DNA of 64,000 nt from the NCBI RefSeq assembly GCF_020165495.1, contig NZ_JAIUIE010000012.1:1-64000 (forward strand), read 5' to 3'. Position numbers and translations under genes: made by a program. How positions within the stretch are numbered: the stretch's first letter is position 1; every line of letters starts with the position of its first letter. Shown piece after piece: positions 6,139-56,394 of the stretch. The stretch comes from Mesorhizobium sp. BR1-1-16. Its GTDB lineage: Bacteria; Pseudomonadota; Alphaproteobacteria; Rhizobiales; Kaistiaceae. The notes under the pieces are model-generated. The model saw only the letters and a program-made list of their open reading frames with translations. It made no database searches and was not told where the DNA came from.

Positions 6139-7661
6139 GCGGCCTGCTCCGTCGCGTCGATATTGAGGGCGCTTTGCAGCAGATTGCGCTCGTTGAGCTC
6201 GTCTCCGGCCAGCTCGCGGCGGATGCGGCCGTCATAGATGACGAGCACGCGGTCGCAGCAGCCGATCAATTCTGCATAATCGGTCGAATAGAACAGGATC
6301 GCCGCCCCCTGATTGGCCAGCTCGCGCATCAGGCGATAGATTTCCTGCTTGGTCCCGACATCGATGCCGCGCGTCGGATCATTCAGCAGGATGATGCCGG
6401 GCTCCGTCATCAGCCATTTCGCCAGCACGACCTTCTGCTGGTTGCCACCCGACAAGGCCGAGACAGGCGCCAGCAAGTCCGGCGTCTTCACCCGCAGCCG
6501 ATCGACCATCAACTGCACGGCGGCATTTTCCTTGTCGGCATCGACACCGAAGCGCCCGGCGAGACGTGGCAGCGCGGCGAGGGTCATGTTGTCCCTGACG
6601 CTCATCGGCAGCATCAGGCCTTCGGTCTTGCGATCCTCGGGGATCAGCGCCATCGGCAGCGGCGCCTGCATGGCCTTGCGCGGGCCATCGAGCATCAACG
6701 GTTTGCCATCGACGGCGACGGTTCCCGAAACGCCCTTGAGCACGCCGAACAGCGCCAGCAGCAACTCGCGCTGACCCTGGCCATCGAGGCCGCCAAGGCC
6801 GACGATCTCGCCCTTCCTCAGGGTGAACGAGATGTCCTGGATCTCACGGCCCCAGGCGAGATGGGCGGCGGCCAGCGCGACCGACCTGTCGGCCGCCGGC
6901 TGTGGCTTTTCCGGATATTGGTGCGTGACCTCGCGGCCGATCATCATCTCGATGATGGCATCGACGGAGCGCGCCCCCTTCGGGAAGGTCTCGATCTTGC
7001 GGCCATTGCGGAAGACGGTCGCCGTATCGGCCAGCGCCTCGATCTCGCGCATGCGATGCGACACATAGAGAATGCCGACGCCGGACGCCTTCAGCTCCCG
7101 GATGATGCCGTAGACGCGTTCGACATCATCGGCCGTGAGGGCCGAAGTCGCCTCATCGAGGATGAGAATGCGCGGATTGCGGCCGAGCGCCTTGGCTATC
7201 TCGACCATCTGACGACGCGACAGCGGCAGGTCGCGCACCAGTTCGAGCGGATGAACATCCTCGCAGCCGACACGCTTCAACAGCGACCGGGCGCGCTCGC
7301 GCTGCCCCTTGGCATCGATCATGCCGAACCATTTCGGCGGGTCGACGATCGACAGATTGTCGGCGACCGTCATTTCCGGCAGCAGCGACAGTTCCTGGAA
7401 CACGCAGACGACGCCGGCACGCATCGCCTCGGTCGGCGACTTGAAGCGGACGGGCTTGCCCTCGATCAGGACCTCGCCCTCGGTCGGATCAGTGACGCCG
7501 GAAGCGATCTTGATCAGCGTGGACTTGCCGGCGCCATTCTCGCCAAGAACGGCCTGGATCTCGCCGGGATAGACCGAGAAATCGACGTCCGTCAGCGCAG
7601 CAACGCCGCCATAGCGCTTCGAGATCTGCTTCAGCTCGAGATAGGGCTTCCGGTCATGCAA
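6135..7661 (-). CDS. CUT2-type sugar ABC transporter ATP-binding protein, two nucleotide-binding domains
   Basis: A 508-residue ATPase of the RbsA/MglA type. The first domain has a complete Walker A (GENGAGKST, about 38-46), an LSRRQMVEIAKAL signature region and Walker B ILILDEATSALT. In the second domain (about 250-500) the Walker A region is replaced by GLDGQGQRELLLALFG, while LSGGNQQKVVLAKWL and GIILLNDPTRGIDVG are kept. A degenerate second site is usual in this family. The start is a TTG at 7661 with no clear Shine-Dalgarno, so the N-terminus is slightly uncertain. It lies 74 bp after the binding-protein gene, with a hairpin between. Confidence 0.9.
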   Translation of the reverse strand: MHDRKPYLELKQISKRYGGVAALTDVDFSVYPGEIQAVLGENGAGKSTLIKIASGVTDPTEGEVLIEGKPVRFKSPTEAMRAGVVCVFQELSLLPEMTVADNLSIVDPPKWFGMIDAKGQRERARSLLKRVGCEDVHPLELVRDLPLSRRQMVEIAKALGRNPRILILDEATSALTADDVERVYGIIRELKASGVGILYVSHRMREIEALADTATVFRNGRKIETFPKGARSVDAIIEMMIGREVTHQYPEKPQPAADRSVALAAAHLAWGREIQDISFTLRKGEIVGLGGLDGQGQRELLLALFGVLKGVSGTVAVDGKPLMLDGPRKAMQAPLPMALIPEDRKTEGLMLPMSVRDNMTLAALPRLAGRFGVDADKENAAVQLMVDRLRVKTPDLLAPVSALSGGNQQKVVLAKWLMTEPGIILLNDPTRGIDVGTKQEIYRLMRELANQGAAILFYSTDYAELIGCCDRVLVIYDGRIRRELAGDELNERNLLQSALNIDATEQAA

Positions 7662-7693
7662 GGGAGCAATCCGCTGCGCTGGAGGACAAGAGA

Positions 7694-7720
7694 ACCGGCG
7701 GGCCGAAGCGGCCCGCCGGT
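7694..7720 (-). promoter_or_regulatory. Intercistronic hairpin between binding-protein and ATPase genes
   Basis: A perfect 11-bp inverted repeat (ACCGGCGGGCC / GGCCCGCCGGT) with a 5-nt loop. It lies directly after the stop of the binding-protein gene and is not followed by a T-run. Such hairpins commonly protect or attenuate transcripts so that the binding protein is made in excess of the membrane parts. Confidence 0.6.
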
Positions 7721-7735
7721 CGAGGCCAGCAGGAT

Positions 7736-8863
7736 CTACTGGTTCTCTTTGCTCTGCCCCATGATCTCCTGCGCGGTGAAGTTGATGCCGCAGTCAGGGA
7801 AGGCGTTGCCGACGAAGAAGTTGTCGGATTCCTTCGAGTAGAAGTTCACGCCATCCTTGAAGTCGGGATCGTGATCGATGGCGAGCGGCAGCGCGATCGA
7901 CTGCGGCACGACATCGCCTTCAAGCGCCGCAATGGCCGTCTTGATCGCGACGGCGACCTGGGCCGGGCCGCTGCCGGCCGACGTGCATTTCAGGCCATCG
8001 GCCGAATGCTCCGCGCACAGCTTGCGAAAGCCGTTCTCCGTCTCGCCGCCAACGGGGACGAACGGATGGCCTGCATCCATCAGCGCGCGCACGGTGCCGG
8101 TCGAGCCGCCCTGCACGGTGACGCCATCGAACTTCTTGTGCACCGCAACCGCGTCGGCCGTCACCTTCTGGGCCGTGCCATCGTCCCAGCGGCCGATGAC
8201 CTCGACCGTCTCGAACTTCTTGCCCGACTTGCCGAGAACCTCCTGGATACCCTCATGCCGGTCGCGATCGACCGAGGTTCCGGTCACGCCGCGCACCTCG
8301 AGCACCTTGCCGCCATCGGGCAGATGATCGACCAGCCACTGGCCCCAGAGCTCGCCGAGCCCCTTCTGGTTGACGTTGACGTTGATCGCCTCGTCGGTGT
8401 CGAGCGTGTTGTCGAATGCGACGAGCACGACGCCGGCAGCCTTGGCGCGCTTGATCACCGGCTTGAAGGAGGTCGGGTTCTGGGCGTTGACGATGATCGC
8501 GTCGTAGCCGGAGTTGATGAAGTTGTCGACGGCGGCAATCTGCGCGGCGACGTCGTCACCGGTTGATACGACCTTGAATTCCTTGAGCTTTGCCTTGACG
8601 TCCGGCTGCTCGGCATAAGCCTTGGCGGTCTGGATCATCTGGATGCGCCAGGTATTGCCGATGAACCCGTTGGCGAGCGCGATCCGGTATGGCCCTTCCT
8701 TCTTCGGGAACTTGAAGAATTTGGTCTCCGCCGCCCACGGCTTGAAGCACATGGGGTCGGCACTCGGGCCCGCGACGATTTCAGGACCGGCCGCATGCGC
8801 GACCGTCGCCAATGCGCCCACGGCGATCGTCGTCGCCAAGAGCTGTCGGATGTGCTTCACCAT
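7736..8863 (-). CDS. CUT2-type sugar ABC transporter periplasmic binding protein
   Basis: A 375-residue precursor. MVKHIRQLLATTIAVGALATVAHA is a standard Sec signal peptide cut after AHA. The mature part has the ribose-binding-protein fold (Peripla_BP_4): DNFINSGYDAIIVNAQN, AKAAGVVLVAFDN and RGVTGTSVDRDRHEGIQ. The start at 8863 is chosen because GGAGG precedes it closely; an ATG five codons earlier would overlap that ribosome site. It is the first gene of the transporter operon and is followed by an intercistronic hairpin. The ligand is not identifiable by eye. Confidence 0.9.
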   Translation of the reverse strand: MVKHIRQLLATTIAVGALATVAHAAGPEIVAGPSADPMCFKPWAAETKFFKFPKKEGPYRIALANGFIGNTWRIQMIQTAKAYAEQPDVKAKLKEFKVVSTGDDVAAQIAAVDNFINSGYDAIIVNAQNPTSFKPVIKRAKAAGVVLVAFDNTLDTDEAINVNVNQKGLGELWGQWLVDHLPDGGKVLEVRGVTGTSVDRDRHEGIQEVLGKSGKKFETVEVIGRWDDGTAQKVTADAVAVHKKFDGVTVQGGSTGTVRALMDAGHPFVPVGGETENGFRKLCAEHSADGLKCTSAGSGPAQVAVAIKTAIAALEGDVVPQSIALPLAIDHDPDFKDGVNFYSKESDNFFVGNAFPDCGINFTAQEIMGQSKENQ

Positions 8864-54093: not shown

Positions 54094-54109
54094 GCCGAGC
54101 TAGCTCGGC
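54094..54109. terminator. Hairpin between the converging RND and DUF4142 genes
   Basis: GCCGAG-CTAG-CTCGGC is a perfect 16-bp palindrome that includes the DUF4142 stop codon. It has no real T-run. It could end transcription from both sides. Confidence 0.4.
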
Positions 54110-54627
54110 TTCAGCGCGCCGGCCATCTCCTGATGGTGCTGGAGCGTCGGTAGCAGCTTGGCCGCCAGTCCGCGCAACGCGCCGTTCGGGCCGGTCTCGG
54201 AAAAGCCGGTAAACAGCGCCACCGCTTCCTTGTGCGCGGCGATCTGTTGCTCGACATAGAGCGCATCGAAGTTCGGCCCCGCCGCCTTCAGCGCCTCGAT
54301 CAACGCCTGATGGGGCGGATCCAGCGTTTTCGGCAGTGTCATGGTGCCTGCCGTCTGGCGAAGTTCGCCGTCGGCCTTGGTATGGTCGGTGATCATTATC
54401 TGGGCAAATTCCCGGATGGCCGCATCCTTCGAGCGTTCCAGCGCCAGTTGGCTCGCCTGCACTTCGTAAAGGCCGGAGACCGCTGCCGTCCGTGCAAAGG
54501 CTTCAGCTGCGTCCGACGTTTCAGCGCGTACGGCACCGCCGCTGTCATTTGCCGCCTGAGCGAAGGAAACCGATGGCACGAAGGCTATCCAAGCGAGTGC
54601 CAGAGCCTTTGTCGTAATTGAACGCAT
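54100..54627 (-). CDS. DUF4142 family secreted protein
   Basis: A 175-residue protein with a Sec signal peptide ending SFAQ near residue 24 and the DUF4142 ferritin-like helical pattern: AVSGLYEVQASQLALERSKD, IREFAQIMITDHTKADGELR and YVEQQIAAHKEAVALFTGFS. Such proteins are frequent in alphaproteobacterial stress regulons; function unknown. AAGGAG precedes the ATG and a candidate EcfG promoter lies 70 bp upstream. Confidence 0.88.
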   Translation of the reverse strand: MRSITTKALALAWIAFVPSVSFAQAANDSGGAVRAETSDAAEAFARTAAVSGLYEVQASQLALERSKDAAIREFAQIMITDHTKADGELRQTAGTMTLPKTLDPPHQALIEALKAAGPNFDALYVEQQIAAHKEAVALFTGFSETGPNGALRGLAAKLLPTLQHHQEMAGALKPS

Positions 54628-54798: not shown

Positions 54799-54823
54799 GG
54801 AACTGCCATTGGTGAAAGGCATT
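54799..54823 (+). promoter_or_regulatory. Candidate EcfG-type promoter of the catalase gene
   Basis: GGAAC, 16 bp, CATT, 36 bp before the start codon. Same form as at the KGG-like gene. Confidence 0.4.
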
Positions 54824-54858: not shown

Positions 54859-56124
54859 ATGTATCACCATATCAAGAAGCTGATGTTCACCGTCAGGGTT
54901 GACGAGCCCGATCCGCGCTTCGGCAACATGTTGCTGGAACAATTCGGCGGCGCGAACGGCGAGTTGGCGGCTGCCATGCAGTATTCGATCCAGGGGCTCA
55001 ATTGCGAGGATCCGGAGCGCAAGGACCTCCTCATGGATATCGGCACGGAGGAACTGAGCCATCTCGAGGTTGTCGGCTCGCTCGCCCGGATGCATCTGAA
55101 GCCGTCCAAATTCGACCGCGAAGCGGCGGAGGCGGATCCGCTAATCGCGATTGCCGGCGGCGGCGGCGTTAGCCTCTTCAACTCGCAGGGCAATCCCTGG
55201 ACGGCCGACTACCTCAAGATCACGGGCGAACTCGATGTCGATCTGCGCAGCAATATCGCCGCCGAGGCCCGCGCCAAGATTGTCTATGAGCGGCTGATCA
55301 ACTTCACCGACGATGCCGGCACGAAGGATGCGCTGCAATTCCTGATGACGCGCGAGATCACGCATATGAAGGCATTCTCGGCGGCGCTCGAAAGCATGAA
55401 GAAGCCGACCTTCTCGATCGGCCGCCTGCCGCCGACACCGGGTCTCGTCGACCAGTATTTCAACGATTCGACCGGTTCGGGTGATTATGGCGAGTTCGAT
55501 GCCCGCGGTCCGTGGAATGAGGGCGGCGACTGGGAGTACATGACTTCTCCGGTGATCTCGGAAGAAAGCGCTGCGGAGGATGGCGCGATGGTCCGGGTCG
55601 AAACGACGCCCGATGTCGCCGACGCGGCGCTGCAGGCGCTCCTCGTCGATCAGCTCAAGGACATTCTACACGCCGAGAAGCAGCTGGTGAAAGCACTGCC
55701 GAAGCTTGCCTCGGCGGCGCGGGCGATGCAGGTCCGCGATCTCTTCGAGCGCCACCTCGCCGAGACCGAGCAGCAGGTCGAGCGGCTCGAAAGCTGCTTC
55801 GCGTTGCTCGACATCAAGGCACAGGCGAAGCCGTGCAAGGGCATGGCCGGACTGATCGAGGAGGGCCAGGAGGTGATTGGGGAAGCCGGCGAGAAGGACG
55901 ATGCCTCGGCCGACCTGGCGCTGATCGGCGCTGCCCAGCGCGTCGAGAACTACGAGATTTCGGCCTACAAAACGGCGCGCAATCTCGCGCAGCAGCTACG
56001 GCTGCCGCCGCTCGTCGCGCTGCTTGCCGCCTCGCTCTCGGAAGAGGAAAACGCCGACCAGTTGCTCGCCCAGGCGGCGCAGTCGCTGATGTCGGTCGCC
56101 AAAATGCCGGCAGCCATCAACTGA
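54859..56124 (+). CDS. Manganese catalase fused to a DUF892 (YciE/YciF-like) domain
   Basis: A 421-residue protein with two ferritin-like domains. Residues about 1-225 match non-haem manganese catalase: Glu35 in GANGELAAAM, Glu65 and His68 in TEELSHLE, Glu136 in NIAAEARAK, Glu166 and His169 in REITHMKAF, followed by the PTPGLVDQYFNDS tail. Residues about 245-421 match the DUF892 family: LLVDQLKDILHAEKQLVKAL, AKPCKGMAGLIEEGQEVIGE, AAQRVENYEISAYKTARNLA and LSEEENADQLL. The two are usually separate genes. A catalytic hydrogen-peroxide function is likely; the role of the extra domain is open. A candidate EcfG promoter lies upstream. Confidence 0.85.
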   Translation: MYHHIKKLMFTVRVDEPDPRFGNMLLEQFGGANGELAAAMQYSIQGLNCEDPERKDLLMDIGTEELSHLEVVGSLARMHLKPSKFDREAAEADPLIAIAGGGGVSLFNSQGNPWTADYLKITGELDVDLRSNIAAEARAKIVYERLINFTDDAGTKDALQFLMTREITHMKAFSAALESMKKPTFSIGRLPPTPGLVDQYFNDSTGSGDYGEFDARGPWNEGGDWEYMTSPVISEESAAEDGAMVRVETTPDVADAALQALLVDQLKDILHAEKQLVKALPKLASAARAMQVRDLFERHLAETEQQVERLESCFALLDIKAQAKPCKGMAGLIEEGQEVIGEAGEKDDASADLALIGAAQRVENYEISAYKTARNLAQQLRLPPLVALLAASLSEEENADQLLAQAAQSLMSVAKMPAAIN

Positions 56125-56178: not shown

Positions 56179-56394
56179 ATGACCGATCGGAACAGGAAGG
56201 TTGCCGTGCCGTCGACGTCTACCGTCAAGGGCGACGCCAAAGGCCAGTTCGCGCCGGTTCAATCGGGCGAAAATAATGACGGTGCCGCAAGCGCCGAGCC
56301 GCGCGTGCTCAGGGATGGCGAGGCTATGGCCAGCGACTGGGACGAGGACGAGGACGCGAGCGGCAGCCCTTCGCTGCCGAACCGGCCGAGATAG
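56179..56394 (+). CDS. Small hydrophilic protein of unknown function
   Basis: 71 residues, polar and acidic in its second half (SDWDEDEDASGS), probably disordered. GGGAG precedes the ATG, 54 bp after the catalase stop, so it is probably in the same stress transcript. Not recognised. Confidence 0.6.
   Translation: MTDRNRKVAVPSTSTVKGDAKGQFAPVQSGENNDGAASAEPRVLRDGEAMASDWDEDEDASGSPSLPNRPR

Follow-up and report, generated by a model that had tools for sequence, protein, structure and literature searches.

The DUF892 (YciF/YciE) proteins are a common family of stress proteins for which, to our knowledge, no biochemical function has been established. In several systems their genes are found beside a gene for a manganese catalase. 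According to the available part of PMC4458695, katN of Salmonella is regulated by sigma-S and adjoins yciEFG, and katN-yciEFG is also present on a Pantoea element; here the same two families lie side by side as separate genes. On the Pantoea plasmid p33.1_1, which carries two DUF892 genes, and on the Paracoccus plasmid p296221, whose catalase shows an identity of only 32%, both families are likewise adjacent on one strand, but as separate genes. A fused form is already in print. The accessible part of PMC6727835 (2019) credits Hindupur et al. 2006 with the finding that bll3758 of Bradyrhizobium japonicum bears a manganese catalase domain along with features of YciF; it was the only mention of the fusion returned by our literature search, which drew on sources available in part. 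The catalase-DUF892 fusion itself is thus not new. The likeness of bll3758 to the gene described here is one of domain pair, taken from the published description and not from sequence.

A catalase and a DUF892 domain in one reading frame

The gene under study lies in a stretch of 64,000 nucleotides from Mesorhizobium sp. BR1-1-16, the whole of which we call the window. Translation of its reading frame on the plus strand gives 421 residues with a single stop at the end, and the protein can be divided into three parts:

54859..56124, plus strand, stop included: fusion gene, 421 amino acids (frame translation)
54859..55545, plus strand: KatB-type manganese catalase domain, residues 1-229 (PF05067, matches to 6j42 and 4r42, conserved ligands)
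55546..55629, plus strand: linker of 28 residues, residues 230-257 (sequence comparison; low model confidence at 184-254)
55630..56091, plus strand: YciF-type DUF892 ferritin-like domain, residues 258-411 (PF05974; the model matches YciF structures)

An earlier note on this DNA had proposed that the gene fuses a manganese catalase with a DUF892 domain, and that a full YciE/YciF-like domain follows in the same frame without a stop or frameshift. Both points are borne out by the Pfam matches. PF05067 (Mn_catalase) matches residues 1-254 with 214.1 bits (cut-off 27) and PF05974 (DUF892) residues 258-411 with 158.4 bits (cut-off 23.7), the latter profile being covered nearly over its full length (positions 2-154 of 159), and both fall in one frame of 421 codons whose only stop is terminal. 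The joining of a catalase and a ferritin-like DUF892 domain in one protein is genuine. In a search of solved structures, residues 1-232 matched Anabaena KatB (Alr3090; 6j42, E 6.9e-51, and 4r42, E 1.6e-50), and residues 258-409 matched YciF-type structures, best 4eru and also 7tmv, 2gs4 and 2gyq, which have the matching fold and share 35-41% identity with the DUF892 half. Unlike the fusion, however, the solved KatB chain, of 236 residues, lacks a DUF892 half, and the YciF-type structures are stand-alone proteins of 166-173 residues. The NCBIfam equivalog ManCatBAC (NF052557) reached 157.5 bits over positions 1-195 of 268, under its cut-off of 350; in our reading, the model stands for a longer catalase type. 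In the catalase half the window copy reaches 92% identity with its best matches, in the DUF892 half 72%. A Bradyrhizobium 'DUF892 family protein' (WP_283019012.1, plasmid pCC1502_1) has the same domains in the same order, with 79% identity over residues 1-420; the window copy comes from a different family of the same order.

The metal ligands of the catalase half (E35, E65, H68, E136, E166 and H169) were placed by alignment to 1jku and 6j42, and the assignment builds on the ligands of the L. plantarum enzyme. The claim that these ligands are in place in the first half holds across the family. E65, H68, E136, E166 and H169 are identical in all 96 distinct fusion proteins that we collected and E35 is identical in 95, the remaining row showing a gap in a protein that lacks its start. 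The dimetal site of KatB is of the Glu4His2 type, as stated in the available text of PMC8347308, and the catalase half of the window protein possesses this set, including the fourth glutamate described for KatB. By homology, it is very likely that the first half has Mn-catalase activity.

In the DUF892 half, E273, H299, E302, E335, E363, E395 and E396 are invariant among the 96 fusions; E366 and Q306 are shared by 95 of them and D400 by 92. When 41 separate DUF892 proteins are considered, E273, H299, E335, E363, E366 and E396 are found in 97-100% and E302 in 82%, and residue 306, a glutamine in 95 of the 96 fusions, is either glutamine (58%) or histidine (41%). Since the family-typical carboxylates and a histidine have been kept, the DUF892 half probably binds a metal pair of its own, with the conserved residues as putative metal binders. 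Residue 364 is an asparagine in the window protein, whereas it is a histidine in 95 of 96 fusions and in 97% of the 41 separate proteins.

A structure model of the whole protein was built from a shallow alignment of 34 sequences. Its mean pLDDT is 55.9; the catalase half is poor, and confidence is low at residues 184-254. The DUF892 half is modelled better, with ten-residue means of 79-95 over residues 261-410 except for 63-67 at 321-350, and matches the YciF structures with TM scores (by target) of 0.90-0.93 for 2gs4, 4eru and 7tmv and 0.86-0.87 for 2gyq. The model thus predicts a ferritin-like helical bundle for this half. Because of the shallow alignment and the poor catalase half, it makes no statement on packing or oligomers. 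One scan of viral contigs with the DUF892 half as query, meant to deepen the alignment, confirmed no relative.

Integrity, distribution and common origin of the fusion

A frame of this kind could also arise if a sequencing or assembly error had joined two genes, and the earlier note had named a stop in close relatives as the sign of such an error. We compiled 100 loci from genome contigs, plasmids and other genomes, which encode 96 distinct fusion proteins including that of the window; the selection required a match of more than 330 residues, and split copies would have escaped it. Of the 96 proteins, 95 have an uninterrupted frame that runs from the start codon to a stop past residue 417. The 96th (L134, in genome G199) is frameshifted near residue 52, away from the domain join, and represents either a decaying gene or a sequencing error. 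A scan of contigs with patterns from the catalase end confirmed 249 relatives, and the best 80 of these 249 all match from residue 1 to at least 417. Full-length homologues with 72-79% identity are present on four Bradyrhizobium and Rhizobium plasmid records, and a Pfam scan of six fusion relatives found the same two domains in each. For close pairs, which are not independent of each other, the median dN/dS is 0.037 in the catalase half (1948 pairs), 0.137 in the linker (1705) and 0.060 in the DUF892 half (1918); both halves are under purifying selection. The linker varies in sequence and measures 25 to 33 residues across 35 representatives. With the frame open in so many separately sequenced genomes and plasmids, and with both halves under constraint, an error that joined two genes is exceedingly improbable, and we reject a sequencing artefact as the origin of the frame.

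Among 61 relatives, the window genome included, the fusion is found in the window genome alone, and none of the 13 other genomes of its genus has it. Sampling was extended to the order, class and phylum in overlapping samples that count the window genome (limit E 1e-40). Full-length copies are present in 15 of 397 genomes of the order sample (16 copies from five families), and one genome of a sixth family carries a frameshifted copy. The class sample contains the fusion in two of 385 genomes and the phylum sample in eight of 398, all of them in the window's order. The 30 other matches in these samples are KatB-type catalases without a DUF892 match. Within the samples drawn, the fusion is therefore confined to this order, which the named matches indicate to be the Hyphomicrobiales, and is scattered there. 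It is an established family common to many root-nodule bacteria and their kin, not a one-off.

Trees of both halves were calculated from part of the fusions. In the catalase-half tree (21 fusions, 40 separate proteins) all fusions lie on one side of a branch with an SH-aLRT value of 99, and the DUF892-half tree (22 fusions, 41 separate proteins) shows the same with a value of 100; the window row was left out of both, and in both the long branches that meet were flagged. The grouping is the same when the window is added, with values of 100 for the catalase half (32 fusions, 9 separate) and 99 for the DUF892 half (33 and 13), the latter again with meeting long branches flagged. Both domain trees thus unite the fusions in a single clade. 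In a full-length tree the window copy has no well-supported sister. A single fusion event in the Hyphomicrobiales may have given rise to the gene, which would then have spread as a single gene, presumably by transfer. No description of this single clade was found in our literature search, which drew on partly available sources and was not aimed at the clade question.

A promoter-like site and the genomic setting of the window copy

The following features surround the fusion gene in the window:

54799..54823, plus strand: promoter-like site of the EcfG type (EcfG being a general stress sigma factor), GGAAC-N16-CATT, beginning 60 bases ahead of the start codon
54073..56485, no strand assigned: block of 2413 bases absent at the same place in the same-genus genome G001, with the DUF4142 gene, the fusion gene and a small frame
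54100..54627, minus strand: divergent neighbour, DUF4142 protein of 175 amino acids (PF13628, 129.6 bits)
56179-56394: small frame (71 codons) that follows the fusion gene and has an acidic stretch towards its end

The consensus of EcfG1 from Rhizobium etli is GGAAC-N16-CGTT, as given in the available text of PMC3892343. On its own the window site is weak, because it ends in CATT and the loose pattern GGAAC-N15-17-NNTT occurs 13 times in the 64 kb of the window on both strands; it becomes credible only through its conservation in the family. In 92 of 95 orthologues, and in 33 of 34 representatives, a match to the loose pattern begins between -85 and -45 relative to the start codon; a resampled-sequence control gave 0.4%. 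On the same strand the pattern was absent from eight further 40-base bins (0 of 94-95 in each), and nine bins on the other strand gave 0 to 10 occurrences. The three orthologues without a site comprise two in which an upstream frame ends just before the start and one whose upstream stretch reads N. Of the 92 sites, 39 end in CGTT. A stricter pattern, GGAA[C/T]-N15-19-[C/T]GTT anywhere in 250 bases, is found in 51 of 95 orthologues, the window copy not among them, and the strict pattern has no match in the window. No sigma-70 promoter was found on the gene's strand between 54000 and 56600; the one match on the other strand lies inside the fusion gene. Judged from this site, the fusion gene may be under the control of EcfG. 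Our literature search, with most subscription papers outside its reach, found no description of an EcfG-like site for the fusion family.

In G001, the same-genus genome of highest identity in the comparison, only 51 bases separate the RND transporter gene (matched by the window up to 54072) from the region that precedes the solute-binding-protein gene (matched from 56486). From G001 alone, a gain of the 2.4 kb block in the window and a loss in G001 are not separable; we favour a gain, as the fusion is absent from the rest of the genus. The block has no direct repeat at both ends. A weak inverted pair close to its ends, at 53975-53991/56382-56398 (17 bases, 82%), was considered as the ends of a mobile element and dismissed, being one of 22 such pairs and taken as chance. 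Searches of Pfam, NCBIfam and PHROGs assigned the small frame to no family. A comparison of 38 loci, judged from one printed example per frame family, did not yield a conserved operon around the fusion: each of the five families present in at least 10 loci had an example overlapping the fusion gene on the other strand or in a shifted frame, and the other neighbour frame families recurred in 5 or 4 loci.

The genome of the window encodes a second manganese catalase (G000:C24:233036-233815, L177). It is unfused and branches with the long-type catalases; its identity with the catalase half of the fusion is about 31%. The contig of this second catalase also has a DUF892 gene and, at G000:C24:199080-199629 (L203), a second copy of the DUF4142 gene, with 82% identical DNA.

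Separate gene pairs and the role of the DUF892 half

We examined all 30 separate KatB-type loci from the order, class and phylum samples, together with some 6 kb of flanking sequence on either side, as far as the contig reached. A DUF892 gene is present in 12 of them, within 1.3 kb in 11, and in 10 of these 11 on the same strand. Some sequences of the DUF892 profile (41 separate proteins plus three set by coordinates) came from loci that were then searched, so that a few of the hits are partly by construction. Assuming a few DUF892 genes in a genome of 5 Mb, we roughly estimate that the two families would come this close by chance in well under 1 in 20 cases. One locus of the window's genus (G009, L175, reverse complement 6765-8264) has a separate KatB-type gene closely followed by a divergent DUF892 gene, which we call YciE-like for its divergence. 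The statement that the two families are normally separate neighbours therefore needs to be narrowed. It applies to 11 of the 30 loci, to the Pantoea and Paracoccus plasmids and to katN beside yciEFG, as far as the available text of PMC4458695 describes it; it does not apply to the other 19 loci, which lack a DUF892 gene within 1.3 kb, 18 of them in the whole stretch examined. The katN-yciEFG arrangement may be seen as a parallel, in which the same two families come together under a different general stress sigma factor.

A functional tie between the domains, as suggested in the earlier note, gains support from the single clade in both trees, from the selection on both halves and from the 11 loci with close gene pairs. 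We consider a stress-induced two-domain protein for peroxide and metal handling to be the best explanation, with a probability of roughly one half. In this protein the KatB-type dimanganese half would split hydrogen peroxide, and the flexible linker would hold the YciF-type ferritin-like domain beside it. The DUF892 half would bind or oxidise ions of iron or manganese, and peroxide would thereby be dealt with together with reactive iron; EcfG would switch the gene on. What the DUF892 half does is a matter of conjecture; our best guess is that it handles metal or peroxide next to the catalase.

Two other readings of the same evidence need to be weighed. The DUF892 half might serve the catalase in assembly or metal loading, by stabilising or cross-linking the oligomer or by delivering manganese, and have no chemistry of its own. 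The fixed domain order and the single clade would suit such a role, as would the DUF892 genes beside separate catalase genes and the entries 4eru, 7tmv, 2gs4 and 2gyq, whose two chains each would fit a pair. A pure scaffold, however, would not need the DUF892 carboxylates that have been kept, and such a catalase does not obviously need a DUF892 protein encoded nearby, since 18 of the 30 separate KatB-type genes are without one in the stretch examined; we regard this reading as rather unlikely. It is equally doubtful that the two stress functions are simply made together without direct interaction, the fusion merely replacing an operon. The long, variable and less constrained linker and the occurrence of the same pair as adjacent genes elsewhere are in keeping with this idea, but none of the 95 open copies, albeit chosen as full-length matches, is split, and no separate-gene relative falls inside the fusion clade in the trees.

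Within the peroxide and metal-handling reading, a more specific and tentative proposal is a dedicated anti-Fenton protein under general-stress control, in which the KatB site would remove peroxide while the tethered YciF site would capture or oxidise ferrous iron. If true, this would be the first defined role for the DUF892 family. A natural and selected fusion to an enzyme of known reaction offers a handle on DUF892 function, as the halves can be separated for assay, and the conserved EcfG-like site would make the gene part of the general stress response of Alphaproteobacteria.
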